Assembly: GCA_021737865.1 (NCBI GenBank)
Contig: JAIPDC010000007.1
Coordinates: 1 to 39,160, forward strand
Length of the DNA: 39,160 bases
Direction of reading: 5' to 3'
Source: Rhodoferax sp.
GTDB taxonomy: Bacteria > Pseudomonadota > Gammaproteobacteria > Burkholderiales > Burkholderiaceae_C
Positions 1-34,034 of the stretch are shown piece by piece. The notes beneath the pieces were generated by a model that saw only the letters and a program-made list of their open reading frames with translations, made no database searches and had not been told where the DNA came from. Within the stretch, counting starts at the first letter, position 1. Each line of letters opens with the position of its first letter. Made by a program: the position numbers and the translations under genes.

Positions 1-1598
1 GTAGCGAGAGCACACTTTTACGACTGACCCGCGAAGAGCTGATGCGCCACGAGGCCGCAGGCATCACCACCGCATCCTTCCCCAAGACCATACGCCTTGG
101 TGGCGTGGACTGCGCGGCCACCTATTTGCACGAGCCCGGCGACCCGCGCGACGGCCTGACCGTGACGGTACCGCTGTTTGTCCTGAACCAGGTGAACGAC
201 GAACGCTGCGAGTGGCTGGTGCCCGGCATGTTGAAAGACAAGGTGCAGGCCCTGCTCAAAACCCTGCACCAGCGCCCGCGCTCGCGACTGGTGCCACTGC
301 CCGACACTGCCAGCAAATTTGCCGAGGTGTTGAACGCACCCGAGCGCTTTGGCCACAGTGCGCTGATTGATGCCGTGTTGAAGCTGGTGCGCGAAGCCAC
401 TTCGCTGGACATCGCACGCGCCGACATCAAGGCCGACATGCTGACACCGCACTTCTTCATGAACTTACGTGTCGTGGACGAGCATGGCCGCCAGTTGGGC
501 CATGGCCGCAACCTGGGAGCGCTCAAGGCCGAGCTGGGCGCGCAGGCGCGCGGCGCATTTCAGGCGCTGGCGGGGATCAAGCTGGCGCAGGTGGGTGGGG
601 CCAGCGCTCCCATGCCAAATTTAGCATCAAATGTGGCTCTAGCCCCCGTGGAACTTGCGCAAGTAGCTATTAAAACAGGAGCAAAAAAGACCGCCTCTGC
701 TGCTCCCAAGCCGGGTATCACCGAACAGCGCCACACTGCCTGGACCTTTGGCGAACTGCCCGAACTGCTGGAAATTCGCAAGGGCGGACAAACGCTGATC
801 GGTTTTCCAGCGCTGATCGACCAGGGCGATGCCGTTACGATCGAGGTGTTTGACGAACCCGAGGTGGCCGCAACAAAGCACCGCGCCGGCCTGCGCCGCC
901 TGTTTGCACTGCAGATCAAGGATGCACTCAAGTATCTGGAGAAAAACATCCCCGACTTGCAGAAGATGGCTGTGGCGTATATGCAGGTCGGCAGGGCAGA
1001 AAATGGAACGGGTGGAGGCACGGTTGAAGAACTGCGCGACCAAATCATCGCCGTGGCGCTGGAGCGGGCTTTCTTGCTGGACCCGCTGCCGACAGACGAA
1101 TTTGCCTTCAAGCGCCGGGTGGAGGAGGGTCGTGGCCGCCTGACGCTGATCGCCAACGAAGTGGCGCGCCTGGCCAGCACGATTTTGCTGGAGTACGCCA
1201 TTGCGGCGCGTAAGATCAAGGACACTAAGAGCGCCCCCGACGCCGTGGCAGATTGTGCGCAGCAGATCAGCCGCTTGGTGCCCAAACGTTTCTTGCAGGC
1301 GGCCCCCTGGCCGCGGCTACAGCATCTGGCACGCTACCTCAAAGCCATCACCCTGCGATTGGAAAAGTACCGTGCGGACCCGGCCCGCGACTTCGCGCGC
1401 CTGAGCGAACTGCGTCCGTTGGAGCAACGCTACTGGCGTCTGGTGGCCGAGCGCAAGGGCGCTGTGGACGAGCGCATGCAGGAGTTTCGATGGTTGATGG
1501 AGGAGTTGCGGGTGAGCTTCTTTGCGCAGGAGTTGCGCACGCCGCAGCCGGTGAGCGTGAAACGGTTGGATAAAGCCTGGGTCCAGTTGAACGGATAA
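1..1598 (+). CDS. hrpA: ATP-dependent RNA helicase HrpA, C-terminal part (5' truncated by window)
   Basis: The frame is open from the first full codon at base 3, so the gene begins upstream of the window and about 531 residues are visible. Motifs such as LTREELM, FPKTIRLGG and VTVPLFVLNQV, then a long helical C-terminus ending LDKAWVQLNG, match the C-terminal DUF3418 region of HrpA-type DEAH-box helicases; the helicase core itself lies outside. HrpA proteins act on RNA, and the E. coli protein is linked to mRNA processing and stalled-ribosome rescue (family knowledge). A 48-bp interspersed repeat at 635-682 is read through in frame and adds visible residues 212-227. The gene ends with TAA and converges on ppsR across 35 bases that hold a fragment of another repeat. 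Identification is firm; the start cannot be seen. Confidence 0.9.
   Translation, partial: SESTLLRLTREELMRHEAAGITTASFPKTIRLGGVDCAATYLHEPGDPRDGLTVTVPLFVLNQVNDERCEWLVPGMLKDKVQALLKTLHQRPRSRLVPLPDTASKFAEVLNAPERFGHSALIDAVLKLVREATSLDIARADIKADMLTPHFFMNLRVVDEHGRQLGHGRNLGALKAELGAQARGAFQALAGIKLAQVGGASAPMPNLASNVALAPVELAQVAIKTGAKKTASAAPKPGITEQRHTAWTFGELPELLEIRKGGQTLIGFPALIDQGDAVTIEVFDEPEVAATKHRAGLRRLFALQIKDALKYLEKNIPDLQKMAVAYMQVGRAENGTGGGTVEELRDQIIAVALERAFLLDPLPTDEFAFKRRVEEGRGRLTLIANEVARLASTILLEYAIAARKIKDTKSAPDAVADCAQQISRLVPKRFLQAAPWPRLQHLARYLKAITLRLEKYRADPARDFARLSELRPLEQRYWRLVAERKGAVDERMQEFRWLMEELRVSFFAQELRTPQPVSVKRLDKAWVQLNG
635..682 (+). repeat. 48-bp interspersed repeat, copy 1 (inside hrpA)
   Basis: First of six gap-free 48-bp copies. 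It has GGCT at positions 1-4, AGCCCCCGT at 7-15, TGCGC at 22-26 and GCTA at 32-35, and ends GAGC where most copies have TAGC. In the hrpA frame it encodes ALAPVELAQVAIKTGA. The two other forward frames contain stops (TAA and TAG). The left flank ATCAAAT resembles that of the copy in rlmD. Confidence 0.8.
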
Positions 1599-13472: not shown

Positions 13473-14750
13473 TTGAGAACCATTCAAAAATCTGCCAAGT
13501 TGGCAAACGTGCTCTATGACATTCGCGGCCCCATCATGGATGCGGCTCGCCAGATGGAGGATGAGGGCCAGAAGATCATCAAGTTGAACCTCGGCAACCT
13601 CGCGGTTTTTGGTTTTGATGCGCCCGAAGAAATCCAGCAGGACATGATTCGCAACCTGCCCAACTCGGCCGGCTATTCGGACAGCAAAGGCATCTTCGCT
13701 GCACGCAAGGCGGTGATGCACGAGACCCAAAAGCAGGGTATTGCCGGCGTCACGCTAGACGATATCTACTTGGGTAATGGCGCCAGCGAGTTGATCACCA
13801 TGGCGACCAATGCGTTGCTTGACAACGGCGACGAACTGCTGCTGCCCATGCCAGACTACCCGCTGTGGACCGCTGCGACCAGCCTGTCGGGCGGCACGCC
13901 GGTGCATTATCTGTGCGACGAGGCGAATAACTGGATGCCCAATCTGGACGATATCCGCGCCAAGATCACACCACGGACCAAAGGCATCGTCGTGATCAAC
14001 CCCAATAACCCCACGGGTGTGATGTATTCCGATGCCTTGCTAAAGAGCATTGTCGAGATCGCCCGTGAACATGGTCTGGTGATCATGGCCGATGAGGTGT
14101 ACGACAAAGTTTTGTACGACGGCGTCAAGCACACCGCGCTGGCATCCCTTTCCACCGATGTATTGACGCTTACCTTCAATTCGCTGAGCAAGAGCTACCG
14201 TTCCTGCGGCTACCGGGCCGGCTGGATGGTGGTGTCGGGCAATAAGAAGACCGCGGCTGACTACATCGAGGGGCTGAACATGCTCTCGAATATGAAGTTG
14301 TGCTCGAACGTGCCCGGGCAGTGGGCTATTCAGACGGCTTTGGGCGGCTACCAGAGCATCAACGATCTGGTGTGTGAAGGTGGTCGCCTGCGCCGCCAGC
14401 GTGACCTGGCATATGAGCTGATCACTGCAATTCCTGGTGTTACCTGCGTCAAGCCCAGCGCGGCTTTGTATATGTTTCCCAAGTTGGACCCCAAGGTTTA
14501 CCCGATCAGCGATGACCGCCAGTTCTTCCTGGAACTCCTGAAGGCAACCCGCGTGATGCTGGTTCAGGGTACGGGCTTCAACTGGAAGCAGCCTGACCAT
14601 TTCCGCATCGTGTTCCTGCCCCATGAAGACGACTTGCGGGAGGCCATTTCGCGTATTGCCAAATTTTTGGAAAGCTACCGCAAGAGCCACGGAACCCAAG
14701 ATGCCCAGACACCGTCGTCTGCTATTAAATTGGTAGCTGCTCGCGCTTAA
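13473..14750 (+). CDS. alaA: Glutamate-pyruvate (alanine) aminotransferase AlaA-type
   Basis: The 425-residue PLP-dependent class I/II aminotransferase closely follows E. coli AlaA as I recall it: MRTIQKSAKLANVLYDIRGP, NPNNPTGVMYS, ADEVYDKVLYD and the PLP-lysine motif SLSKSYRSCGYRAGWMV. It makes alanine from pyruvate and glutamate. The start is TTG at 13473, five bases after a strong GGAGG, and the N-terminus aligns with AlaA from the first residue. The C-terminus is unusual: after the helix FLESYRKSHG a tail ending SSAIKLVAARA is encoded by an interspersed 48-bp repeat in reverse orientation, which also supplies the TAA stop. The hom gene follows 38 bases later. Confidence 0.93.
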   Translation: MRTIQKSAKLANVLYDIRGPIMDAARQMEDEGQKIIKLNLGNLAVFGFDAPEEIQQDMIRNLPNSAGYSDSKGIFAARKAVMHETQKQGIAGVTLDDIYLGNGASELITMATNALLDNGDELLLPMPDYPLWTAATSLSGGTPVHYLCDEANNWMPNLDDIRAKITPRTKGIVVINPNNPTGVMYSDALLKSIVEIAREHGLVIMADEVYDKVLYDGVKHTALASLSTDVLTLTFNSLSKSYRSCGYRAGWMVVSGNKKTAADYIEGLNMLSNMKLCSNVPGQWAIQTALGGYQSINDLVCEGGRLRRQRDLAYELITAIPGVTCVKPSAALYMFPKLDPKVYPISDDRQFFLELLKATRVMLVQGTGFNWKQPDHFRIVFLPHEDDLREAISRIAKFLESYRKSHGTQDAQTPSSAIKLVAARA

Positions 14751-14768
14751 TTTACGGGGGCTGCAGCC
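14721..14768 (-). repeat. 48-bp interspersed repeat, copy 2 (end of alaA)
   Basis: Reverse orientation. Read on the minus strand it begins GGCTGCAGCCCCCGTAAA and carries AGCGC at 22-26, GCTA at 32-35 and TAGC at 45-48. The last nine residues and the stop codon of AlaA lie inside it, and the rest covers part of the gap before hom. Confidence 0.8.
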
Positions 14769-14788
14769 CTCTTTTACCTAGAGAATTT

Positions 14789-17652: not shown

Positions 17653-17660
17653 CAAAAAGT

Positions 17661-17708
17661 GCCACTAGCCCACGTCAAATAAGCGTTGCAAGCTATCAAT
17701 AATATAGC
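17661..17708 (+). repeat. 48-bp interspersed repeat, copy 3 (thrC-moeA gap)
   Basis: Forward copy filling most of the gap between thrC and moeA. It begins GCCACTAGCCCACGT, has GCG at 23-25, and ends with an inverted pair GCTAT/ATAGC at 32-48 that can fold as a small hairpin just before the moeA ribosome site. Confidence 0.8.
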
Positions 17709-17725
17709 AATCGGAGACCCAGTGC

Positions 17726-18979
17726 ATGACAGTCCCACAGCGTCCCCCCCTGTTGCCACTCGATGACGCGTTGTCCCGTCTCTTGTCATTTGCCGACCCT
17801 GCACTGAGCCCCGAATCGGTGCCCGTGGGAGACGCCGATGGCCGTGTCCTGGCACAGGACGTGGTGTCCGCACTGCACGTGCCACCGCACGACAACAGTT
17901 CCATGGACGGCTATGCCCTGCGCTGTGCGGATGCGGCTGTGCCAGGGGTGCAATTGCCGGTTGCGCAGCGCATTGCGGCCGGGTCCAGCGGGACGCCGCT
18001 GCAAACCGGTACCCTTGCGCGCATCTTCACTGGTGCGCCGGTGCCTCTGGGTGCTGATGCCGTGGTGATGCAAGAGGAGTGCCTTGTGTTGCCGAATGGA
18101 CAGGGCGATGCTGATCGGCCTCAGGTTCAGATCAACGCGCAGCCCACACCCGGTCAAAACATCCGCCGCGCAGGCGAAGACGTTGCCCGCGGCGACGTGG
18201 TTTTATCGCGCGGACAGCGCCTGGGCCCAGCCGAACTGGGCCTGGCAGCCAGTATTGGCATGGCTTCGCTGACCGTTGCCCGTCGGCCCCGCGTGGCCCT
18301 GTTTTCCACCGGTGACGAGTTGGTCATGCCAGGCAGCGTGGCGCCGCAGGACATGCCGCCAGGCGCTATCTACAACTCCAATCGATTCTTCCTGCGCTCG
18401 CTGTTGCGTCGCATGGGCTGCGTGGTGAGCGACCTCGGTATCGTGCCCGACCAGCGTGAAGCGACGGTACAGGCGTTGCGGGAGGCTGCGCAGGCGCATG
18501 ACGTCATTCTTACCAGTGGTGGTGTCTCGGTTGGGGAAGAAGACCATATCAAGCCGGCGGTGCAGTCCCTGGGAACGCTCGATCTATGGCAGATTGCGAT
18601 CAAGCCCGGCAAGCCCTTTGCACATGGTCGTATTGGTGATGCCCATTTTCTCGGCCTACCCGGCAACCCGGTGTCCAGCTTCGTGACTTTTCTGGTGCTG
18701 GTGCGGCCGTTTCTGTTGCAGTTGCAGGGCGCGCGCAATGTCGCCATGACAACCGTGGCGGCTCGCGCCGACTTCACCTGGGCCAAACCCGACAAACGTC
18801 GCGAGTTCCTGCGTGCGCGGCGCAATGCGAACGGTGGGTTGGACCTGTTTCCCAACCAGAGCTCCGGCGTGCTGACTTCGGCGGTCTGGAGTGATGGCAT
18901 GATCGACAACCCGCCTGGATGCGCCATTGCACCGGGTGACGCGGTACGTTTTGTGCCATTTTCGGAAGTGCTAGCGTGA
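17726..18979 (+). CDS. moeA: Molybdopterin molybdotransferase MoeA
   Basis: The 417-residue enzyme inserts molybdate into adenylated molybdopterin, the last common step of Mo-cofactor synthesis. Family motifs are PPHDNSSMDGYALR, RIFTGAPVPLGADAVVMQE, TSGGVSVGEEDH and FLGLPGNPVSSFVTF, with the small C-terminal domain ending in PPGCAIAPGDAVRFVPF. The ATG follows CGGAG at 9 bases. The stop overlaps the moaD GTG start (GTGA), indicating coupled translation. The cofactor could serve the molybdenum formate dehydrogenase encoded 4 kb downstream. Confidence 0.96.
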   Translation: MTVPQRPPLLPLDDALSRLLSFADPALSPESVPVGDADGRVLAQDVVSALHVPPHDNSSMDGYALRCADAAVPGVQLPVAQRIAAGSSGTPLQTGTLARIFTGAPVPLGADAVVMQEECLVLPNGQGDADRPQVQINAQPTPGQNIRRAGEDVARGDVVLSRGQRLGPAELGLAASIGMASLTVARRPRVALFSTGDELVMPGSVAPQDMPPGAIYNSNRFFLRSLLRRMGCVVSDLGIVPDQREATVQALREAAQAHDVILTSGGVSVGEEDHIKPAVQSLGTLDLWQIAIKPGKPFAHGRIGDAHFLGLPGNPVSSFVTFLVLVRPFLLQLQGARNVAMTTVAARADFTWAKPDKRREFLRARRNANGGLDLFPNQSSGVLTSAVWSDGMIDNPPGCAIAPGDAVRFVPFSEVLA

Positions 18980-19227: not shown

Positions 19228-19239
19228 TGCGGTAAGTAT

Positions 19240-19287
19240 GCTATGTTTTTTGTAGCTACTTGCGCAGTATTGGCGAGGGTTGGAGCC
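19240..19287 (-). repeat. 48-bp interspersed repeat, copy 4 (moaD-moaE gap)
   Basis: Reverse orientation inside the operon. On the minus strand it begins GGCTCCAACCC, carries TGCGC at 22-26, GCTA at 32-35 and ends TAGC. Its right edge (GGAG on the + strand, 19282-19285) lies where the moaE ribosome-binding site would be, ten bases before ATG 19295. Confidence 0.78.
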
Positions 19288-19294
19288 ACTTTTC

Positions 19295-19789
19295 ATGCAT
19301 AAAAATCCCCGTGTTTCGATTCAGACGGCTGACTTCGACGTCGCCACCGAAATTGCTGCGCTGCGCGCCGGCGACCACCGCGTTGGTGCGGTTTGTAGCT
19401 TCATCGGTACCGTGCGGGATAGAAATCAGACCAGCATTGACCCGGCGGGCTCGGTGCAGTCCATGGAACTGGAGCATTACCCGGGCATGACCGAGAAGGC
19501 CATTGAGGCCATGATCGATGACGCCCACCGCCGGTTTGACATCTTCGCAGCCCGTGTGATCCACCGCATCGGCTTACTGCAACCACCCGATCAAATCGTT
19601 CTGGTTGCCGTCACCTCTGCCCACCGGGGCGAGAGTTTCAAGGCTTGTGAATTTCTGATGGACTACCTCAAAACCCAGGCCCCGTTCTGGAAAAAAGAGC
19701 AGACCGCGGCAGGTGCCCATTGGGTCGATGCGCGGGTGAGTGACGATGCCGCTTTGGCCCGGTGGGGCATTCAGTCCAGCAACGCGTAG
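19295..19789 (+). CDS. moaE: Molybdopterin synthase catalytic subunit MoaE
   Basis: The 164-residue subunit converts precursor Z to molybdopterin using sulfur from MoaD. Motifs are GAVCSFIGTVRDRN, MELEHYPGMTEKAIE, RVIHRIGLLQP and FWKKEQTAAGAHWVDAR. I chose ATG 19295 (MHKNPRVSIQTADF) because the in-frame TTG 15 bases earlier lies in repeat sequence; the N-terminus then fits the family. It ends seven bases before the converging hypothetical gene, with no terminator visible. Confidence 0.94.
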   Translation: MHKNPRVSIQTADFDVATEIAALRAGDHRVGAVCSFIGTVRDRNQTSIDPAGSVQSMELEHYPGMTEKAIEAMIDDAHRRFDIFAARVIHRIGLLQPPDQIVLVAVTSAHRGESFKACEFLMDYLKTQAPFWKKEQTAAGAHWVDARVSDDAALARWGIQSSNA

Positions 19790-23114: not shown

Positions 23115-25967
23115 TTATGTTTTTATGTAGCCGCAGGAGGGCGACAGCGTTCCGCCCCGCTGGATGGCCACGGCGCAATATTTGAACTCGGGGATCTTGC
23201 CAAAGGGGTCCAGCGCGGGGTTGGTCAGCAGGTTAGCGGCGGCTTCGTAGTACGCAAAGGGGATGAATACGGCACCGGTCGGGGTGCCATCGTCCTGGCG
23301 CACCTGTAGCGTGACCTGGCCGCGGCGAGAGCGCACGGTCATGACGTCACCCGGGTCCAGCCCCAGCGCTTGCAGGTCTGCACCGCACAGGCAGGCAGTG
23401 GCGGTTGGCTCGAGCGCGTCCAGCACGGCGCTACGCCGGGTCATGCTGCCGGTGTGCCAGTGCTCCAGTTGGCGCCCGGTGATCAGCACAAAGGGGTAGT
23501 CGGCGTCGGGTCGTTCGTTGGCTGGAATGATGTCGGCTGGCACCAGGTGGATGCGCCCGTCCGTTGTGGCAACACGGTCCTTGAAGACTGTGTGCTCGCC
23601 GGGGTCGTCTGCGCTGTGACAGGGGTAGGTGACGCTGGATTCGCGCTCCAGCCGTTCCCACGTAATGCCTCCAATGGCGGCGTGCATGGCCTGGCGCATT
23701 TCTTCATAGACCGAGGCTACGCCATGGTGATCCCCTGGGTAGCTCCATTGCACTCCCATGTGCCGGGCGATTTGCTGAATGATCCACAGGTCAGCCCGCG
23801 CCTGGCCGGGCGGGTCGATCGCCTGTAGGCCCAATTGCACCATGCGGTCGGTATTGCTGACGGTGCCGGTCTTCTCGGGCCATGCGGTGGCTGGCAGCAC
23901 CACGTCCGCGAGCCACGCGGTTTCGGTCATGAAGATGTCCTGCACCACCAAATGCTCCAAATTGGCCAGCGCATGGCGCGTGTGGTTCAGGTTGGGGTCA
24001 CTCATGGCCGGGTTTTCGCCCATGATGACCATGCCGCGCACCTTATGCGGATCACTGTCTGGCGCCAGGATCTTGTGCATGATCTCGACAACCGTGTAGC
24101 CGGGCTGGTTGTCCAGCTTGGTATCCCAAAATTTCTCAAACCAGTCCTGCACGGCAGGGTCGGCGACGCGCTGGTAGTTGGGGTACATCATGGGTATGAG
24201 ACCGGCGTCGCTGGCGCCTTGAACATTGTTCTGGCCGCGCAGCGGGTGCAGGCCGGAGCCTGGTTTTCCCAGTTGCCCGGCCACGGTAGCCAAAGCGATC
24301 AGACAGCGCACGTTGTCGGTGCCGTGCACATGTTGACTGACGCCCATGCCCCACAAAATCATCGCGCTCTTGGCAGTGGCGTAGGCACGAGCCACCTCGC
24401 GCAGCGTGTCAGCGGGTATGCCGCAAATGGGTGCCATCGCCTCCGGGCTGTAGTCTTTGACGTTTTCCTTCAATGCTTCGAAATTAACAGCGCGCTGCGC
24501 AATGAATTCGTGGGCTACAAGGTCTTCTTCAATGATGGTGTGGATCAGTGCATTGAGCATGGCGACGTCGGTGTCGGCCCTGAACTGCAGGGTGCGCCAG
24601 GCGTGTTTACCCAGATCGGTGACGCGCGGGTCTGCCAGCACAATCTTTGCGCCCTTTTTGGCCGCGTTCTTCATCCAGGTGGCCGCTACAGGGTGGTTGT
24701 TGCTGGGGTTGGATCCAATCACAAAGATGAGGTCCGAGTGCTCCACGTCGTTGACCTGATTGGTGACCGAGCCCGAGCCCACGCCTTCAAGCAGTGCCGC
24801 TACGCTGCTGGCATGGCACAAGCGCGTGCAGTGGTCGACATTGTTGGAGCCAAAACCGGTGCGCACCAACTTCTGGAACAGGTAGGCCTCTTCATTGCTG
24901 CCCTTGGCCGAACCAAAGCCTGCGAGCGATTTTGGGCCGTGGGTGTCACGCAAGGTCTTGAGCGGGCCAGCTGCCAGCGCCAGCGCTTCGTCCCAGGTCG
25001 CTTCGCGGAACACCGCGGACCAGTCGGCCGTGTTGCGGTTCAGGTGTTGCAGGGCCGCCGGGTCCTTGGGCACACCGGCCTTGCGCACCAGCGGCACCGT
25101 CAGGCGCTGCGGGCTGTGGGCGTAATCAAATCCAAAGCGCCCTTTGACGCACAGGCGGCCACGGTTGGCCGGGCCGTCGCGCCCATCCACGCTGACGATT
25201 GCGTTGTCCTTGACGTTGTAGGTGATCAGGCAACCCACCCCGCAAAACGGGCACACCGAGTCCACTTTTTTATCTACCGCCTGCGAGCCGATCTGCGTCT
25301 TCGGGCTCAGCGCACCCGTCGGGCAAGCCTGCACACACTCGCCGCAGGCCACGCAACTGCTGGCTCCCATGGCATCGTTCAGGTCAAACACGATGGCGCT
25401 GTGCGCGCCGCGATGGGCGTAGCCGATGACACCGTTGACCTGCTCCTCGCGGCAGGCCCGCACGCAGCGCTTGCACTGGATGCAGGCGTCGAGGTTGACC
25501 GCCATGGCTGGGTGTGACACGTCAGCCTTGGGTTGTTCGCGGCGTAGCGCCCTCAGTGCAGGTCGAACGGTGACGCCCATGCGCGCGGCCCAGTCGCTGA
25601 GTTCCCCGTGCTGCCCCATTGGTGCAGCAGCGCCAGAACCAACGTCAGAGTCATTCCACTTGTATCCCACATCGGGCATATCGGACAGCAACATCTCCAT
25701 CACCATGGCCTGGCTCTTCAACGCACGCGGGTTTGTGGCCTTCACATCCATGCCCGCTGTAACGCTGCGGCAGCAACTGGGCGCCAGAGAGCGCTCGCCG
25801 TCAATCTCGACCACGCAAGCACGGCAGTTGCCATCAGCGCGCAGTCCATCTTTAAAGCACAGGTGGGGAATATCGACCCCATGACGCTGCGCGGCTTTGA
25901 GGATGCTTTCGCCGGCATGGGCTTGGGCTGGCTTTCCATCCAGCGTGAATGCAATGGGTGTGCTCAT
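23115..25967 (-). CDS. fdsA: NAD-dependent formate dehydrogenase, molybdenum catalytic subunit
   Basis: The 950-residue enzyme oxidises formate to CO2 at a bis-MGD molybdenum site. An N-terminal 2Fe-2S domain has Cys37, 48, 51 and 65. Two 4Fe-4S motifs follow (Cys162/165/168/172 and Cys205/208/211/215). The MopB domain has CPFCGVGC (Cys239/242/246) plus Cys273. The Mo ligand is Cys384 followed by His385 (CTRLCHASS), a cysteine rather than selenocysteine enzyme. The His/Cys3 cluster motif of NuoG-like domains is not visible between residues 67 and 155. I chose ATG 25967 (MSTPIAFTLDG), which overlaps the fdsB stop as ATGA; the frame extends upstream without homology. No fdsC or fdsD follows. 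Confidence 0.93.
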   Translation of the reverse strand: MSTPIAFTLDGKPAQAHAGESILKAAQRHGVDIPHLCFKDGLRADGNCRACVVEIDGERSLAPSCCRSVTAGMDVKATNPRALKSQAMVMEMLLSDMPDVGYKWNDSDVGSGAAAPMGQHGELSDWAARMGVTVRPALRALRREQPKADVSHPAMAVNLDACIQCKRCVRACREEQVNGVIGYAHRGAHSAIVFDLNDAMGASSCVACGECVQACPTGALSPKTQIGSQAVDKKVDSVCPFCGVGCLITYNVKDNAIVSVDGRDGPANRGRLCVKGRFGFDYAHSPQRLTVPLVRKAGVPKDPAALQHLNRNTADWSAVFREATWDEALALAAGPLKTLRDTHGPKSLAGFGSAKGSNEEAYLFQKLVRTGFGSNNVDHCTRLCHASSVAALLEGVGSGSVTNQVNDVEHSDLIFVIGSNPSNNHPVAATWMKNAAKKGAKIVLADPRVTDLGKHAWRTLQFRADTDVAMLNALIHTIIEEDLVAHEFIAQRAVNFEALKENVKDYSPEAMAPICGIPADTLREVARAYATAKSAMILWGMGVSQHVHGTDNVRCLIALATVAGQLGKPGSGLHPLRGQNNVQGASDAGLIPMMYPNYQRVADPAVQDWFEKFWDTKLDNQPGYTVVEIMHKILAPDSDPHKVRGMVIMGENPAMSDPNLNHTRHALANLEHLVVQDIFMTETAWLADVVLPATAWPEKTGTVSNTDRMVQLGLQAIDPPGQARADLWIIQQIARHMGVQWSYPGDHHGVASVYEEMRQAMHAAIGGITWERLERESSVTYPCHSADDPGEHTVFKDRVATTDGRIHLVPADIIPANERPDADYPFVLITGRQLEHWHTGSMTRRSAVLDALEPTATACLCGADLQALGLDPGDVMTVRSRRGQVTLQVRQDDGTPTGAVFIPFAYYEAAANLLTNPALDPFGKIPEFKYCAVAIQRGGTLSPSCGYIKT

Positions 25968-27796
25968 GCGGCACCACCAATCTCGTGCGCAAAGTATTTT
26001 TGAACCGAACGCACAACGTTGGGCGCCGCCTGACCCAGCCCGCAAATGGAAGCGTCCACCATCACCTGGCTCAGGTCTTCCAGTGTGGTTTGGTCCCAGA
26101 CGCTGGCTTGCATCAAAGTGGCGGCCTTAGCCGTACCCACACGACAGGGTGTGCACTGCCCGCAACTCTCCTCTGCGAAGAAGCGCATCGCATTGAGCGC
26201 CGCATCGCGCGCACGGTCATGCTGACTGAGCACGATGACCGCCGCTGAACCGATGAAGCAGCCGTAGGGCTGCAGGGTGTCAAAGTCCAGTGGAACCTGG
26301 TTCAGGCTGGCGGGCAGAATGCCGCCGGATGCGCCACCGGGCAGGTAGGCATACAGCGTGTGGCCTTCAGCCATGCCGCCGCAGTATTCGTCAATCAGCT
26401 CCTGCACCGTGATGCCGGCGGGCGCGAGTTTGACGCCCGGGTGTCTCACGCGGCCACTCACGCTGAAGCTGCGCAACCCTTTGCGGCCGTGGCGGCCAAA
26501 GTTTGTGAACCATTGAGGACCTTGTTCGACAATGTCGCGCACCCAATAAAGGGTCTCAAAGTTGTGTTCCAGCGTCGGGCGGCCAAATAGGCCGACTGCG
26601 GCGATATAGGGCGGGCGCATGCGGGGTTCGCCGCGCTTGCCTTCAATGCTCTCAATCATGGCGGACTCTTCACCGCAGATGTAGGCCCCTGCGCCACGGC
26701 GCAGTTCAATCTGGGGTAGCGGGCAGGGCGGGTCGGCCTGCAGCCGGGCGAGCTCTGCCTGCAGCAAGGCGCGGCAGTCATGGTATTCGTCACGCAAATA
26801 GATATAGCAGGCCTCGGTCCCGGTAACCTGGGCGGCGATGAGCATGCCCTCCAAAAAGCGGTGCGGGTCACGCTCCAGGTAGGTCCGGTCCTTGAAGGTG
26901 CCGGGCTCGCCCTCGTCAATGTTGACTGCCATCACGCGCGGGGCAGGTTGCTCGCGCACGATGCGCCATTTGCGCCCGGCCGGAAAGCCCGCGCCCCCCA
27001 GCCCGCGCAGACCGGAGTCTTCCATGGCGGCAATCACCTCCAAGGGGTCCATTTCGTTTTGCACCAGGGCGGCGGCCAGGTTGTAGCCGCCGTTGGCGCG
27101 GTAGGTGGCATAGTCCGTGGCCGCAGTGGGCTCTGACTGCTGGCCAGCAGCTGGTGTGACACTGCGCTGAGCAAGGTCAGGTGCTACAAAATGAATAGCT
27201 GTCTGCGCAGGTAATTCGGGGGCTACAGTCGGATTTTGCTTGAATTTTGTAGCTGCAGCGGCGATCAGACTGGCCGTGGTGCATGCCAGCGCGCTGTGGT
27301 GCACAGCGGCGGCTGGTGCCTGTTCGCAACGGCCCAGGCAGGGCGCTGCAAGCACCCGGATGTCGGCTGTTTCCAAGAGCGCAGGCAGGCGCGCCAGAAT
27401 GTCCTTGGCACCGGCCATCTCGCAGGCCAGCCCGTCGCACACGCGCACGGTCAGACCGGGCGCACTGGCGTTGTCTGGCAGGACTTCAAAGTGGTGGTAG
27501 AACGAGGCCACCTCAAAGACCTCGGCCATGGGGATGTTCATCTCATGGGCCAGTGCGACCAAATGGCGTTCAAACAACGCGCGGTAGTGGTCATTGAGGG
27601 TGTGCAGGTGTTCAATCAACAGGTCACGGCGGTGGCCATCTGCGGGTTTTTGGCCAATCAGGGTACGCACTTGCTCCAATGCCTCGGGGGTGACCTGCCG
27701 ACCCTTAAGCTGGCTGCGACTTTTTCGCAGACTCTGGCGCAGATCGTCCGGGGTTCCCAAAGGCTGGTGCGGGCCGTGTGAAAGAGCGTCGTTCAT
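25964..27796 (-). CDS. fdsB: Formate dehydrogenase diaphorase subunit, fused NuoE-like and NuoF-like domains
   Basis: The 610-residue protein passes electrons from the formate dehydrogenase catalytic subunit to NAD+. Residues 1 to about 180 are NuoE/FdsG-like, with 2Fe-2S ligands in VRVCDGLACEMAG and APCLGRCEQAPA. Residues about 235-610 are NuoF/FdsB-like, with GLRGLGGAGFPAGRKWR for NADH, GAGAYICGEESAMIESIEG for FMN and 4Fe-4S motif CGQCTPCRVG. In classical fds operons these are two genes; here they are one. The linker contains a 48-bp repeat translated in frame as residues 190-205 (TVAPELPAQTAIHFVA). The gene sits 71 bases after the quinone-oxidoreductase-like gene, and translation is coupled to fdsA. 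Confidence 0.9.
   Translation of the reverse strand: MNDALSHGPHQPLGTPDDLRQSLRKSRSQLKGRQVTPEALEQVRTLIGQKPADGHRRDLLIEHLHTLNDHYRALFERHLVALAHEMNIPMAEVFEVASFYHHFEVLPDNASAPGLTVRVCDGLACEMAGAKDILARLPALLETADIRVLAAPCLGRCEQAPAAAVHHSALACTTASLIAAAATKFKQNPTVAPELPAQTAIHFVAPDLAQRSVTPAAGQQSEPTAATDYATYRANGGYNLAAALVQNEMDPLEVIAAMEDSGLRGLGGAGFPAGRKWRIVREQPAPRVMAVNIDEGEPGTFKDRTYLERDPHRFLEGMLIAAQVTGTEACYIYLRDEYHDCRALLQAELARLQADPPCPLPQIELRRGAGAYICGEESAMIESIEGKRGEPRMRPPYIAAVGLFGRPTLEHNFETLYWVRDIVEQGPQWFTNFGRHGRKGLRSFSVSGRVRHPGVKLAPAGITVQELIDEYCGGMAEGHTLYAYLPGGASGGILPASLNQVPLDFDTLQPYGCFIGSAAVIVLSQHDRARDAALNAMRFFAEESCGQCTPCRVGTAKAATLMQASVWDQTTLEDLSQVMVDASICGLGQAAPNVVRSVQKYFAHEIGGAA
27183..27230 (-). repeat. 48-bp interspersed repeat, copy 5 (inside fdsB)
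   Basis: Forward relative to the minus-strand gene. It begins GACTGTAGCCCCCGA, has TGCGC at 22-26, GCTA at 32-35 and TAGC at 45-48. It encodes TVAPELPAQTAIHFVA in the same phase as the copies in hrpA and rlmD, and falls in the linker between the NuoE-like and NuoF-like domains. Confidence 0.8.
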
Positions 27797-27867
27797 GCGC
27801 AGAGCATACCCACTGAAGTAGGGCTGGATAGCCCCAACGTGTCACATTTTTGCGATGTTTCAAGAAA

Positions 27868-28842
27868 TCAGTTCACCATTACCAGTTTGCCCATCACTCC
27901 CCGTGAGCCCATATGGGCGTAGGCGGCTTTGAGTTCAGCCATAGGCATGGTGCGGTCGATAACGGGCTTGATCTTGCCCTGTCCATACCACTGCGCCAGT
28001 TCACCCATCATCGCGGCATTGGCCTTGGGTTCGCGTTTGGCAAAGTCACCCCAGAAGACGCCGACGATGGACGCGCCCTTCAGCAGTGCCAGGTTGAATG
28101 GCAGGGCCGGTATGGGGCCGGACGCAAAGCCCACCACCAGATAGCGACCGCGCCAGGCGATCGAGCGGAACGCCGGCTCGGCAAAATCACCCCCCACGGG
28201 GTCATAGATCACGTCAGGACCTTTGCCATCGGTAAGCGCTTTGAGTGCGTCACGCAGGTTCTCGGTGGTGTAGTTGATGGTGGCATCGGCGCCAATTTTT
28301 CTGCACAGGTCGCACTTCTCCTGGGTGGAGGCGGCCGCGATCACCTTGGCGCCTACAGCCTTGGCAATCTGGATGGCCGAGGTGCCCACACCGCCCGCGG
28401 CACCGAGCACCAGCACGGTTTCACCGGCCTTGAGCTGTGCCCGGTCTACGAGTGCGTGGTGCGAGGTGGCGTAAATCATGATGAAGGCCGCAGCGTCGAC
28501 CATGGGAAAGCCTGGTGGCAAAGGCATACACAACGCGGCTGGGGCGAGCGTGTGCGTCCCAAAGCCGCCGGTGCCACTGAGGCAGGCCACGGCCTGACCC
28601 ACTTTCAGATGCGATACGCCTGCCCCGACTGCCTGCACCATGCCGGCATATTCGGAGCCTGGTACAAAAGGCAGTGCGGGTTTCATCTGGTACTTGTTTT
28701 GCACGATCAGGATGTCCGGAAAATTCAGGCTAGCGGCCTTGATCTCGATCAACACCTCACCGGCCTTGGGCTCGGGGGTGGGCAGTTCCTTCCAGTTCAG
28801 GGAGTCGATACCGGTGGGGTTCTCACAAAGCCAAGCGTGCAT
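27868..28842 (-). CDS. NADPH:quinone oxidoreductase-like protein (zinc-free MDR family)
   Basis: The 324-residue medium-chain dehydrogenase/reductase has a GroES-like N-terminal half (AASLNFPDILIVQNKY, PFVPGSEYAGMVQAVG) and a Rossmann domain with LGAAGGVGTSAIQIAK at about 146-161. No structural or catalytic zinc cysteine cluster is seen, placing it near QOR, crotonyl-CoA reductase-like and similar NADPH oxidoreductases. Substrate is unknown. It lies upstream of fdsB on the same strand with a 71-bp gap that contains a small GGGCT/AGCCC hairpin without a T-run, so co-transcription is possible. It is divergent from surE. Confidence 0.88.
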   Translation of the reverse strand: MHAWLCENPTGIDSLNWKELPTPEPKAGEVLIEIKAASLNFPDILIVQNKYQMKPALPFVPGSEYAGMVQAVGAGVSHLKVGQAVACLSGTGGFGTHTLAPAALCMPLPPGFPMVDAAAFIMIYATSHHALVDRAQLKAGETVLVLGAAGGVGTSAIQIAKAVGAKVIAAASTQEKCDLCRKIGADATINYTTENLRDALKALTDGKGPDVIYDPVGGDFAEPAFRSIAWRGRYLVVGFASGPIPALPFNLALLKGASIVGVFWGDFAKREPKANAAMMGELAQWYGQGKIKPVIDRTMPMAELKAAYAHMGSRGVMGKLVMVN

Positions 28843-29010
28843 GGTCGATCCTAGTCAGTTGGGGGCAAACCGGACAGCCTGTCCCACAAGGGTTAAATCG
28901 CAGGATCATAGGGCCTGCGCGCGGCGCAAATAGTCTCTGGAGTGACCCGGGCGTGACCGGGGCGCATACCGGAGCGGCCCCTACAATGGCCCTTCAACCC
29001 CCTTCAGATT

Positions 29011-29790
29011 ATGAAAATTCTTATTTCCAACGACGACGGTTACCAGGCGCCCGGCATTGTGGCGCTGTACGAGGCCTTGAAGGATGTGGCCGAGGTCGAA
29101 GTAATTGCGCCCGAGCAGAACAACAGCGCCAAGTCCAACGCGCTGACCCTGCATTCACCCATGTACGTAACCCGAGCGGCCAATGGCTTCCGTTATGTCA
29201 ATGGCACCCCTGCCGATTGCGTGCATATCGCCCTGACCGGGCTACTGGACTACCGGCCGGACCTGGTGGTCTCCGGTATCAACAACGGTGCCAATATGGG
29301 GGACGACACCATTTACTCCGGCACCGTGGGGGCGGCCATGGAGGGCTTTCTATTCGGCATACCGGCCATCGCGTTTTCGCAGGTCGAGCGCGATTGGCAC
29401 CACCTGGACGCCGCCGCCCGCAAAGTCCGCGAGCTGGTGCAGTCCATGGCGCAGCAGCAGCTGATTGGGCACAGCCCCTATTTGCTGAATGTGAATATTC
29501 CCAACTTGCCGTATGAGCAGATTGGCGCCCTGAAGTTGTGCCGATTGGGCCGCCGCCATGCTGCAGAAAAAGTGATTCAGCAGGTTAGCCCGCGCGGTGA
29601 GACGATGTACTGGATTGGTGCTGCCGGCCCGGTCAAAGATGACGCTGACGGCACCGATTTTCACGCTACCGCCCAGGGCCATATTTCGATGACGCCGCTC
29701 AAGGTGGACTTGACTGACCATGATCACCTGAGCTACTGGGCGCAGACGGCTTCGCGTCTGGCTGCCAAGGCACACATCACTGCACCATGA
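29011..29790 (+). CDS. surE: 5'/3'-nucleotidase SurE
   Basis: The 259-residue stationary-phase survival protein is a metal-dependent nucleoside monophosphatase. The N-terminus [16 protein letters not shown] supplies metal ligands Asp8 and Asp9. [20 protein letters not shown] and [10 protein letters not shown] are family motifs. No ribosome site is obvious before ATG 29011; a -10-like TACAAT at 28982-28987 would give a very short leader. Its stop overlaps the pcm start (ATGA). It heads the conserved surE-pcm-nlpD-rpoS operon. Confidence 0.96.
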
Positions 29791-30614
29791 AGCAGCGGCC
29801 ATCCTTTCCCGCCAAATTGGACTCCACGCTGGCCAGAAACCGGCCCAATACCGTTGGCGTGAATGCGCCCGCGATGGCCAAGCCGGCAGTGACCGCATCG
29901 CCAGCTACTCCATCCGAGCGGGTCAGGCCTGTGGCGGTTGCGCAGGTTTCGCAGGGACATGGCATGGAGTCGAGCGCGGTGCGTGCCCGGATGGTGCAAA
30001 AGCTGGCCGGGCAGGGAATTACTGACCCGCACGTGCTGGGTGCCATGGGCTCGATTGAGCGCCATCGCTTTGTCGACAGTGCTCTGATCAATCAGGCCTA
30101 TGAGGACACCAGTCTGCCCATCGGACTGGGGCAAACCATTTCGAAGCCGGGAGTCGTGTCCCGCATGGCCGAGTTGCTGCGTAACGGGCAGGTCGGCAAG
30201 CTGGGCCGTGTGCTGGAAATTGGAACGGGGTGCGGCTACCAGGCAGCCGTGTTGAGCCTGCTGGCCACGGAGGTTTACAGTATCGAGCGTCTGCGCGGTC
30301 TGCATGACCGGGCGCGCGAAAACCTGCGCCATTTGCGACTGGCAAATCTGCATTTGCTGTTTGGTGATGGTATGGATGGGTATGCCAAAGGAGCCCCTTA
30401 TGCGGCCATCATTGCCGCAGCAGGGGGTGAGGCGGTGCCCCAGGCATGGGTGGATCAGCTGGCGATGGGCGGACGACTGGTGGCTCCTGTGGTGACGGCA
30501 GGCGCATCGGGTGGTGCACAGGCGCTGTTGGTGCTGGATAAAACGCCGCAGGGCGTGCGCCAGACCCTACTGGAGGCGGTGCACTTTGTCCCCCTAAAAT
30601 CAGGGATTGCTTGA
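29787..30614 (+). CDS. pcm: Protein-L-isoaspartate O-methyltransferase
   Basis: The 275-residue SAM-dependent methyltransferase repairs isoaspartyl residues in damaged proteins. Catalytic-domain motifs are [19 protein letters not shown], the SAM-binding [19 protein letters not shown] and [21 protein letters not shown]. The N-terminal 55 or so residues are Ala/Pro-rich and exceed the usual Pcm length of a little over 200, so a later start (for instance before [17 protein letters not shown]) is possible. ATG 29787 is supported by its overlap with surE. The next gene begins 12 bases after its stop. Confidence 0.94.
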
Positions 30615-30625
30615 AGGAAGTGTTT

Positions 30626-31489
30626 ATGACTGGTCGTTTGCGTTCGGGTTGGTGGTTGGCAGGTGTCGCCGTGGTGCTGTTGTCGGCTTGCGGCTCCAAG
30701 CCCATGAGCCGTGCGCCGGTTGAAGACCGTGCTTCCGTGCCTGCACGCGTGGAACTGTCTGCGCCCACGGCCCCGGTCAAGCAACCGCCCGGTTTTGAGA
30801 ATGCTGGCAAGGCGGGCTACTACACGGTCAAACCCAAAGACACCCTCATCGGCATTGGTCTGGAAACCGGGCAAAGCCACAAAGACATAGCGCGCTGGAA
30901 TAGTCTGGAGAACCCCAACCGCATTGAAGTGGGCCAGATATTGCGGGTTGTGCCACCGGTAGCCGAAAGTGTTGCCGTGACCAAGGCCGTTACCGCAGGG
31001 ACCGCGACCGCTACCCCCATCGCGGCGGGTTCGGCAAAGCCATCTTCAGCACCGGCCTCTGCCCCTGCGACGACAGCCCCGTCCACAGCACCCGTTGCGG
31101 TCGCCGCCGCGACCCCGGAGGACGATATCGGCTGGATCTGGCCCAGCAACGGAACGGTGTTGGCAGGATTTGACGAAGCGAAAAACAAAGGCTTGGACAT
31201 TGGTGGTGTCGCCGGCGAACCGGTTTTGGCGTCTGCTGACGGCAAGGTGGTGTATGCCGGTGCAGGATTACGGGGCTATGGCAACCTGATCATCCTTAAA
31301 CACAACAATGTGTTCTTGACAGCGTATGCGCACAACCAGTCCCTTCTGGTCAAGGAAGACCAGTCGGTCAAGAAGGGGCAGAAGATTGCGGAGATGGGAA
31401 ATACCGATGCCGACCGTGTCAAATTGCACTTTGAGGTGCGTCGCCAGGGCAAGCCGGTTGACCCGGCCAAGTACCTGCCGTCCCGCTAG
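30626..31489 (+). CDS. nlpD: Lipoprotein NlpD, LysM-LytM murein hydrolase activator
   Basis: The 287-residue outer-membrane lipoprotein begins with a signal peptide and lipobox LLSAC (Cys22). A LysM domain ([18 protein letters not shown], about 69-113) binds peptidoglycan. An Ala/Thr/Pro-rich linker leads to a C-terminal M23/LytM domain. The zinc motif is degenerate: NKGLDIGG replaces H-x-x-x-D and KLHFEV lacks the first His of H-x-H, as expected for an amidase activator rather than an endopeptidase. I chose ATG 30626, which follows GAAGGAAG; an in-frame TTG five codons earlier overlaps the pcm stop. In other proteobacteria nlpD contains an rpoS promoter, which may apply here. Confidence 0.92.
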
Positions 31490-31499
31490 CATCCTTACC

Positions 31500-32537
31500 A
31501 TGAGCACGCCTTTCACGGATGGTTTTAACGGCGTGCCGGCGATGCCAGGGCTGACTGATCAGCCCTCTGAAGCAGATGAGTCGATACCCCTCGTGGAGTC
31601 CGACTCTCATGCAATTGAGTTGGTAGCAATCGAGGGGCTCGATCGATTGTTGGCAGGTGATGGGACGACGCACTCGCTGGCCGATGAGTCAGCCGACGCG
31701 CTGTCACTGTATTTGCGCGGTGTGCGCCGCACCGAATTGTTCACCCCCGAACAGGAGTTTGAGTGCGCCACCCGCGCGCGGGCCGGCGATTTCGCAGCGC
31801 GCCAGAGCATGATTGAGCACAATTTGCGCCTGGTCGTGAGCATTGCCAAGGGTTATATGGGCCGTGGAGTGCCTATGGCCGACCTGGTGGAAGAGGGCAA
31901 CTTGGGCCTGATGCACGCCATCGACAAGTTTGAGCCCGAACGGGGTTTTCGGTTTTCTACCTACGCCACCTGGTGGATACGCCAGTCGGTAGACCGTGCG
32001 TTGATGTATCAGGGCCGGGCCGTGCGATTGCCGGTAAACGTCGTTCGCGAACTGCAGCACGTATTGCGTGCCCGGCGCATGCTGGAGAACGATGGGGAAC
32101 TGGTCGCCCGGCGACCTGAAGGCATTCGGGTAGAAGACATTGCGGCACTGCTTGGACGCGAACCCAGTCATGTGGCAGATTTGTTGTCCATGGCCGAGAC
32201 CCCTCGCTCACTGGATGCCTCCCTGGATCGCAATGACGGAGATCTCAGCCTGGGGGATGGTTTGGTGGACCATCTGACACTGGGACCTGAAGATGTGACG
32301 CTATCCCATGAGATTGATCAACTGTTGGAGGAATGGATTTCCACCCTTACCCCGCGTGAGCGTGAGGTGCTGGAGGGCCGTTTTGGCTTGCACGACCATG
32401 ACCCCGAAACGCTTGACACCCTGAGCCTGCGCCTGGGGCTGACACGCGAGCGCGTGCGGCAGGTGCAGAACGAAGCGCTGGTCAAGCTCAAGCGCTACTT
32501 GAGTCGCAGGGGCATCACCCGACATTCCGTGATCTGA
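31500..32537 (+). CDS. rpoS: RNA polymerase sigma factor RpoS
   Basis: The 345-residue stationary-phase sigma factor has a divergent acidic N-terminus, region 1.2/2 ([60 protein letters not shown]), region 3 and a region 4 helix-turn-helix ([20 protein letters not shown]). ATG 31500 gives [16 protein letters not shown]; upstream codons in the same frame overlap nlpD and have no family similarity. There is no Shine-Dalgarno in the ten bases between nlpD and this ATG, so translation may depend on coupling or a longer mRNA from within nlpD. Confidence 0.96.
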
Positions 32538-32573
32538 GTTCGCACGGTTGCCGGGACCTGAGACAATCCCGGT

Positions 32574-34034
32574 ATGACTGACACGCATTCGACCGAAAAG
32601 CAACTGCCCGAGGGCTGGCTACAAGTGAAATCCCTGGACCTGGAAGCTCAGGGGGTCGCCCACAAGCCGGACGGCAAGGTGGTATTTATTGATGGCGCAC
32701 TACCCTTTGAGGTGGTGAGTGCCCAGATACATCGCTCCAAAAGCAGCTTCGAAAAGGGCACTCTGACCGAGATTCACCGGGAGTCGTCTCAACGTGTGCG
32801 CCCCGAATGTCCCCACTTCGGTTTGCATGAGGGAGCCTGTGGCGGTTGCAAGATGCAACACCTGCATATTGGTGCGCAGGTGGCCGTTAAGCAGCGTGTG
32901 CTGGAAGACAATTTGTGGCACATCGGCAAAGTCAAGCCCGACAACATCCTGCGTGCCATCGAGGGCCCGGCCTGGGGCTACCGCTATCGGGCCAGGTTAT
33001 CGGTTAAGCACGTGCGCAAAAAGGGTGCGGTCCTGGTGGGTTTTCATGAGCGAAAGAGCCGCTACGTGGCTGACATGAAGGAGTGCCGGGTGCTGGCACC
33101 GCACGTCAGCGATCTGCTGCTGCCGCTGCGTGAACTGATTGCCTCCATGGAGGCGGTTGAGGCGTGTCCACAGATCGAACTGGCGGTGGGCGACATGGAG
33201 GGCAAGGGGGGCGTGGGGGATGTGACCGCCATGGTGCTGCGCCATTTGACACCCCTGTGCGATGCGGACCTGAATCGTCTGCGTCAATTTGCAGTGGCGC
33301 ACCCCGGCGTGCAATGGTGGCTGCAACCCAAGGGTCTGGATACCGTTCACCGACTGGACGAATCGCCCGGCCACGAGACGGCGCAACTGGCCTACGTCTT
33401 GCCCGATTTTGGCATCATCATGCCGTTTCGCCCGACCGATTTCACCCAGGTCAACCCCCACATCAACCGGGTGCTGGTGTCTCGCGCCTTGGGTTTGTTG
33501 AAGGTCAATAGCGGCGAGCGGGTGATTGACTGGTTTTGCGGACTGGGTAACTTCACCCTGCCTTTGGCCACCCAGGCGCGCGAAGTGCTGGGTGTCGAGG
33601 GTGCCGAAGCGCTGGTCGAGCGATCACGGGAGAATTTTAAGTCAAATCAGGCTGCAGCCCCCGTAAAACGTGCGCTAGCTGCTACTAAGTTTGTAGCAAG
33701 AAATTTGTTCGAGATGACGCCCGAAGTGCTGGTTGCCGATGGTACGGCAGAGAAGTGGCTGGTAGACCCTCCGCGTGAAGGCGCTTATGCCCTGGTCCTG
33801 GCCATGGCCGGCGTGCGCCAGCGCATCGATGAAGGAGTGGCCAGCGCCGCCGAACAGCAGTGGACGCCGCCCGGGCGCATTGTGTATGTCAGCTGCAACC
33901 CGGCCACCCTGGCGCGTGACGCCGGCGTGCTGGTGCAGCAGTGCGGCTACCGTTGCTCGGCGGCCGGTGTGGTCAACATGTTTCCCCACACCGCGCACGT
34001 GGAAAGCATCGCCGTGTTTGATTGGGTCGGCTGA
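32574..34034 (+). CDS. rlmD: 23S rRNA (uracil-1939-C5)-methyltransferase RlmD
   Basis: The 486-residue enzyme methylates U1939 of 23S rRNA. A TRAM-like N-terminus carries an Fe-S cysteine set ([16 protein letters not shown]). The SAM domain has [17 protein letters not shown], and the nucleophile and base lie in [12 protein letters not shown] 48-bp repeat is translated as residues 360-375 ([16 protein letters not shown]), between the helix after motif I and the strand ending ARNLFE, where E. coli RlmD has a short loop. It sits 36 bases after rpoS; those bases hold an inverted repeat CCGGGA/TCCCGG at 32551-32572 directly before the ATG. The stop is two bases from the converging lipoprotein gene. 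Confidence 0.95.
33650..33697 (+). repeat. 48-bp interspersed repeat, copy 6 (inside rlmD)
   Basis: Forward copy starting GGCTGCAGCCCCCGTAAA, with TGCGC at 22-26, GCTA at 32-35 and TAGC at 45-48. It is read as [16 protein letters not shown] in the same phase as copies 1 and 5. The other two forward frames contain TAA stops. Confidence 0.8.

Follow-up and report, generated by a model that had tools for sequence, protein, structure and literature searches.

A dispersed repeat of Comamonadaceae lies in preferred reading frames within genes and often takes the place of native sequence

The window analyzed here, 39,160 nucleotides of a Rhodoferax sp. assembly (GCA_021737865.1, contig JAIPDC010000007.1), carries five strong copies of a short DNA repeat, three in the sense orientation inside the unrelated genes hrpA, fdsB, and rlmD and two opposite to the neighbouring gene (Table 1). 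In the source assembly (3.52 Mb, 79% complete, 259 contigs; designated G000), repeat copies inside genes often take the place of native sequence, and comparison of orthologous coding sites shows stricter conservation of the DNA motif than of the peptide that it encodes. A hidden Markov model made from the same five window copies scored those in HrpA, FdsB, and RlmD at 52 to 61 bits in an nhmmer search of the window (E-values of 2e-15 to 3e-18), compared with a best score of 9.8 bits in twenty shuffled windows. The gene names are supported by NCBIfam, for HrpA through its C-terminal part and for FdsB through NuoE- and NuoF-type halves. A sequence-only reading of this DNA had described one family in the same orientation and phase in the three genes, with their 16-residue peptides, and both points stand. 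Its 48-bp intervals yield the right peptides and phase, but the codon frame begins at the second base of each interval and the sixteenth codon ends one base past it. Stops in the other forward frames, reported for two copies, indeed close both of these frames in hrpA and rlmD, while one other frame is open in fdsB. The FdsB peptide (at about residues 190 to 205) lies between two domains, as had been proposed, since matches to PDB 7e5z were found on either side of it (26 to 180 and 223 to 603).

Table 1. Repeat copies and weaker repeat matches in the 39-kb window
Feature	Position	Strand	Context
Repeat copy in HrpA gene	627..684	+	ORF 3-1598 (+), phase +1, peptide ALAPVELAQVAIKTGA
Repeat copy in FdsB-like gene	27181..27238	-	ORF 25964-27796 (-), phase +1, peptide TVAPELPAQTAIHFVA, between two domains
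Repeat copy in RlmD gene	33642..33699	+	ORF 32574-34034 (+), phase +1, 16-residue peptide
Repeat copy over 3' end of ORF 13473-14750 (+)	14719..14776	-	Antisense to ORF
Repeat copy overlapping start region of ORF 19280-19789 (+)	19238..19295	-	Strong match
Weak, probably decayed copy	17654..17712	+	22 bits; between ORFs 16135-17652 and 17726-18979
Weak match, possible decayed copy	24472..24519	-	17 bits; in frame within ORF 23115-26045 (-), reads LVAHEFIAQRAVNFEA
ORF, open reading frame.

A covariance model built from 33 copies detected at least 150 copies in G000, every one with an E-value below 1e-11. We examined 166 distinct copies from the window and loci L001 to L158, eight of which scored below 25 bits. 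The modelled core spans 48 to 58 bp with 51% GC in G000, and most copies are single and scattered. About 12 additional AT-rich bases upstream of TCAAAT are common to many copies, so the full element may approach 66 bp. Paired copies in the same or neighbouring genes were seen at loci L091, L152, L156, L135, and L243; cases of pairing include two copies each in PurL and MutL (those of MutL in opposite orientations), DapE next to PrmB, two ORFs of L135, and a congener HrpA that carries two. Folding of the consensus with RNAalifold predicted five pairs (-1.58 kcal/mol), with two-sided covariation in none of them, and the palindromic structure typical of repeats such as the Rickettsia palindromic elements (RPEs) was not found. 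An RNA element was rejected, given this slight structure and the lack of Rfam matches across the window plus three loci. Among 120 sampled Comamonadaceae genomes including G000, 44 have repeat matches at an E-value of 1e-6 or better, and in 26 of these, 42 to 46 of the best 46 candidates are repeat matches. Genome G007 contains at least 150 copies, and 149 of the best 150 candidates are copies in genome G175. Among named genomes, the exact core pattern was found in 60 stretches, from Polaromonas, Rhodoferax, Acidovorax, Curvibacter, Comamonas, and Hylemonella as well as broadly or oddly labelled bins. One exact core match lies on a contig labelled Omnitrophota (L480), most likely through a binning error. 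With the origin position not placed, replication-strand bias was absent in G007 (permutation p = 0.46; 114 copies among the matches listed) and nominal in G175 (p = 0.013; 36 copies among the matches listed).

The flanks of each copy were classed with a codon-usage model trained on 231 long open frames taken from these sequences, among which there may be spurious antisense frames; enough flank was available for 165 of the 166 copies. In 53 of the 166, both flanks were coding and a single open frame ran through the repeat, so the repeat is read through in frame within unrelated genes. One of these calls is probably false (L047, a 19-residue open stretch) and two copies at contig ends have identical flanks (L071 and L116), which brings the true in-frame sites to about 51. 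Frame +1 was used by 29 copies, -0 by 18, -1 by three, +0 by two, -2 by one, and +2 by none; that is, 29 of 31 sense copies lay in +1 and 18 of 22 antisense copies in -0. As a comparison set, we took 67 copies that were coding on one side, on neither side, or on opposite strands, in which the same frames (in the order +1, -0, -1, +0, -2, +2) were open in 35, 59, 4, 45, 28, and 3 cases. The in-frame counts expected from this openness are 10.7, 18.0, 1.2, 13.7, 8.5, and 0.9, and the observed counts depart from them (Monte Carlo p of about 1e-5), with +1 favoured over +0 (p = 6e-9) and -0 over -2 (p = 0.012). The phase preference thus exceeds what stop avoidance alone would give, and the picture was unchanged across six classifier settings. 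Among 35 and 92 copies from other genomes, nine in-frame copies lay in +1, three in -0, two in +0, and one in -2, so that nine of 11 sense copies used +1; the contrast between +1 and +0 reached p = 0.07 there alone. Both main frames are usually stop-free and give alanine-rich peptides, xLAPVEYAQAAIxFVA in sense +1 and ATKxIAACAYSTGARGQ in antisense -0. The tolerated phase put forward by the sequence-only reading is therefore the preferred one for sense copies, but an antisense phase is common as well, and a fixed orientation does not hold: no orientation bias was found among the in-frame copies (31 sense versus 22 antisense, p = 0.27).

Protein length at occupied sites was compared with five repeat-free genomes of other genera, for which 30 loci and 40 stretches per query were used among the matches listed. 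From 49 fragments around in-frame copies (four of the 53 were left out), three were dropped for length and 46 were queried (23 + 23); an outgroup spanning both sides was available at 37 sites (19 + 18). Zero was the commonest net change. Median net length lay within 1 residue at 12 sites, whereas gains of 3 to 5.5 residues were found at nine and of 7 to 9.5 at five (14 sites where the alignments are often uncertain), gains of 12 to 22 at five, and losses of 4 to 36.5 at six, most of them in stretches that aligned poorly. In the majority of the 37 cases, the protein had thus not gained about the length of the element. The net change was zero in all outgroup rows for MutL (5), HscA (5), LpxB (6 rows, 5 genomes), and the histidinol-phosphatase-like protein of L021 (5); these names come from NCBIfam, in which L012 has no family. 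No gap crosses the repeat when MutL is aligned with PDB 1b63 or LpxB with PDB 5w8s, both of which we take to be E. coli proteins. TruB exceeds its PDB homologue by 4 residues, GcvP deviates from its own by no more than two, and repeat copies also sit within conserved domains. No repeat above 6.5 bits was present in the outgroup loci (140 loci and 278,545 bases of the five element-free genomes). On a position-specific scoring matrix (PSSM), five sites with low net change scored +34 to +59 in G000 and -35 to -91 in the outgroups.

For RlmD, FdsB, and HrpA, 61 genomes were searched, with 30 loci read per protein in addition to 20 stretches from other families. Repeat occupancy of RlmD is graded over 29 congener loci, from 48 bits to nothing, and reaches at least 25 bits in 10. 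Congeners without a detectable repeat have an RlmD of equal length or within 2 residues, with similar residues, and one group of repeat carriers is 4 residues longer. Relative to three repeat-free genera of the family, the net difference is +7, +7, and -2 residues; the last value refers to genome G061, whose RlmD has similar residues at the site, two more than in G000, with the repeat absent from the locus. Such repeat-free orthologues are what the sequence-only reading had itself named as evidence against the 16-residue linker that it saw added, and the claim fails for RlmD as it does over the 37 sites. RlmD proteins of other families are about 9 residues shorter here, and PDB 1uwv, presumably RumA of E. 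coli, is 8 shorter. FdsB is 5 residues longer than in most congeners, and the HrpA site is a linker that varies in length with or without the repeat. Among congener rows, a clean full-length difference between presence and absence was not seen, the linker sites (HrpA and the second MutL copy) being variable in length.

Coding copies are old: orthologous ones are present in congeners and partly in another genus. Copies in HrpA, ThiL, and GcvP are common to G000 and G175, which is labelled another genus, and those in FdsB, PrmB, and TrpF to G000 and contigs named Polaromonas. These cross-genus pairs carry ascertainment bias and serve only as evidence of shared sites, and the L063/L440 pair was not counted, as it involves a low-complexity protein. 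Conservation was measured between pairs of congeners, at sites picked by their G000 copy and with members fetched via protein similarity; an earlier synonymous comparison with G000 as partner was dropped because of ascertainment bias. Over ten sites and 50 pairs, amino-acid identity was lower in the element than in the flanks (0.66 versus 0.90), whereas the same codon was used for the same residue more often (0.74 versus 0.57). Twelve equally weighted sites stratified by amino acid gave a codon difference of 0.14 (bootstrap, 0.07-0.20), with rlmD and hrpA restricted, here and in the column test, to congeners of at least 14 bits. In that column test, identity at coding copies followed column conservation among non-coding copies (Spearman 0.63; seen at 10 of 12 sites; Wilcoxon p = 0.002), and third-position identity was 0.67 in conserved columns, 0.47 in variable columns, and 0.55 in the flank. 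Non-orthologous copies matched at 0.83 of conserved versus 0.36 of variable columns. For rlmD and hrpA over 542 pairs, the codon effect was absent or reversed (0.41 in the element, 0.48 in the flanks); it was back in the 48 pairs in which both members have the repeat (0.66 versus 0.52) and was not seen in the 127 pairs in which neither does (0.38 versus 0.49).

We give an even chance to the following account: the repeat is a dispersed, non-autonomous element of Comamonadaceae that was copied long ago and largely replaced resident sequence, and its peptide would be a tolerated by-product. Each site carries 51.9 bits of information, compared with about 15 bits needed for specifying 166 sites in 3.52 Mb. 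This excess points to copying, the zero net length to replacement, and the synonymous conservation to DNA as what matters. The copying would mostly have been conversion-like, with short patches of repeat DNA recombining over the resident sequence, and either recurrent conversion or selection on the motif as DNA may keep copies alike. A bolder form, which we hold only tentatively and with some doubt, is that the repeat overwrites about 50 resident bases, conserved genes included, at unchanged length, and that re-copying then maintains the motif beyond genus-level divergence while the protein adapts.

Several observations weigh against this account. Same-codon identity was higher in the element at seven of the ten congener sites and not at the other three, Leu, Thr, and Phe showed the opposite codon trend in the stratified test, and the restriction placed on rlmD and hrpA has to be kept in mind; at the MutL site, amino acids were conserved as in the flanks (0.96 versus 0.91). 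With regard to length, the five sites with the largest median gains (ThiL, DapE, L137, L099, and L057) come near the whole element and are insertion-like, and 14 further sites have smaller gains and six are shortened, in alignments that are often uncertain. Outgroup DNA at low-net sites was not clearly repeat-like beforehand, with only MutL ranking high, so a homology seed for conversion is not demonstrated. Homology-seeded conversion as a specific route was set aside, with support at MutL only. No recent event was found in the comparisons made, and a survey of genomes and loci for Y1_Tnp did not establish a mobilising enzyme. Since the outgroups are other genera, insertion and trimming could also have preceded the radiation of the genus.

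Because those five sites resemble near-full insertions, insertion followed by trimming stays the main rival, possible in our view but on balance unlikely. It holds that a mobile, RPE-like repeat of about 50 to 66 bp inserts, that frame-preserving inserts survive, and that adjacent native residues are deleted back to the ancestral length. The spread of intermediate gains is consistent with it, and passages of two papers report other small repeats in frame within ORFs (PMC3733652, PMC10969869). However, zero as the commonest net change, the ungapped or zero-net alignments of MutL, LpxB, and HscA, and the congener rows described above all speak against it, and the slower synonymous change is left unexplained.

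We consider it improbable that a functional DNA motif was built in place like an uptake sequence, with DNA-level selection acting on point mutations near the motif and genes accepting the tolerated frames. The many sites without length change, the preferred frames, and the synonymous conservation at motif columns would agree with such an origin, as would the preference of uptake sequences for one orientation in reading frames, described in the abstract of PMC2346458. Yet about 52 bits per site far exceeds the 15 bits needed, and occupied and outgroup sites lie at least 76 PSSM bits apart; together, these values indicate copying rather than building in place, and the repeat has no known function or binding protein. 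Selection of the element as a peptide, through a repeat-derived linker of 16 residues that it adds to the host protein, is highly improbable: one phase in three proteins, the FdsB copy between domains, and the HrpA copy in a variable linker had suggested it, but the 37-site lengths, in which most sites gain little or nothing on balance, contradict it at the family level (single linkers could still fit), copies also lie in conserved domains, 18 of the 53 use the unrelated antisense peptide, and peptide selection as the main force is unsupported, given that amino acids of the element change faster than those of the flanks and synonymous codons slower. The observation behind the sequence-only reading is hence confirmed and its interpretation partly supported.

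Uptake signal sequences (USS) and DNA uptake sequences (DUS) have cores of 9 to 12 bp. The present repeat resembles them, as described in the abstract of PMC2346458, in that they have hundreds of copies, many genic, with one orientation commoner in frame; it differs in carrying about 52 bits and in looking copied. Like RPEs, it is dispersed in frame within unrelated genes and encodes a conserved peptide, but passages of PMC10969869 describe RPEs as integrated elements about 150 bp long, whereas this repeat is about 48 to 58 bp, with little structure and often no net insertion. GTAG- and CGTC-tagged repetitive extragenic palindromic (REP) sequences are likewise short dispersed repeats, some wholly within ORFs; according to the same passages of PMC3733652, REPs form palindromic stem-loops, with GTAG REPs often lying near genes for REP-associated tyrosine transposases (RAYTs). 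The present repeat bears (G/A)TAGC at one end, but a stem-loop is unsupported, two-sided covariation is lacking, and no strong copy adjoins the 27 Y1 genes read. Y1_Tnp was present in all 15 repeat-rich genomes and in congener G001 (where repeats were not counted); 12 of the 16 genomes lacking the repeat had it too, and it was not found in G000, which is 79% complete. With crude ORF picking at these loci, 24 of the 27 had no repeat in the fetched flanks and three, all from repeat-rich genomes, had weak matches of 19 to 26 bits. Weak matches flank a Y1 transposase-like gene in L539 and directly follow one in L543, the sole hint of a link to such an enzyme. Mobilisation by RAYTs is not established but may occur. 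The repeat-rich genome G074 has 20 Y1 transposase matches, several of equal score, as an active insertion sequence would give. The beta-proteobacterial repeat element (BRE; Coutte et al. 2011), according to passages of PMC3110155, is also a repeat of Comamonadaceae, including Polaromonas and Rhodoferax, that is usually intergenic with some copies wholly coding; Bordetella BREs are 75 to 91 bp with 69% GC and sometimes tandem, with 4 copies in R. ferrireducens T118 and 29 in Polaromonas JS666. By description rather than sequence, our repeat differs in its number of copies (at least 150) and in a core that has neither the size nor the GC content of the Bordetella copies. Apart from this possible relation to BRE, no published account of the repeat was found in open-licence PMC text, core sequence strings included.

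One of the two antisense copies in the window shows a further effect on proteins. The final codons of ORF 13473-14750 (AIKLVAARA) and its stop come from the repeat, so the family can alter protein ends too.

In-frame repeats are usually viewed as insertions that add peptide. If replacement within the conserved domains of MutL, LpxB, and HscA and upkeep at the DNA level hold true, small repeats would gain a second route by which to spread and reshape proteins. This reading would give testable predictions on length, codons, and frames. With many genera carrying the repeat, and with some 150 sites or more in each genome searched in depth, it would offer a system for separating DNA selection from conversion.

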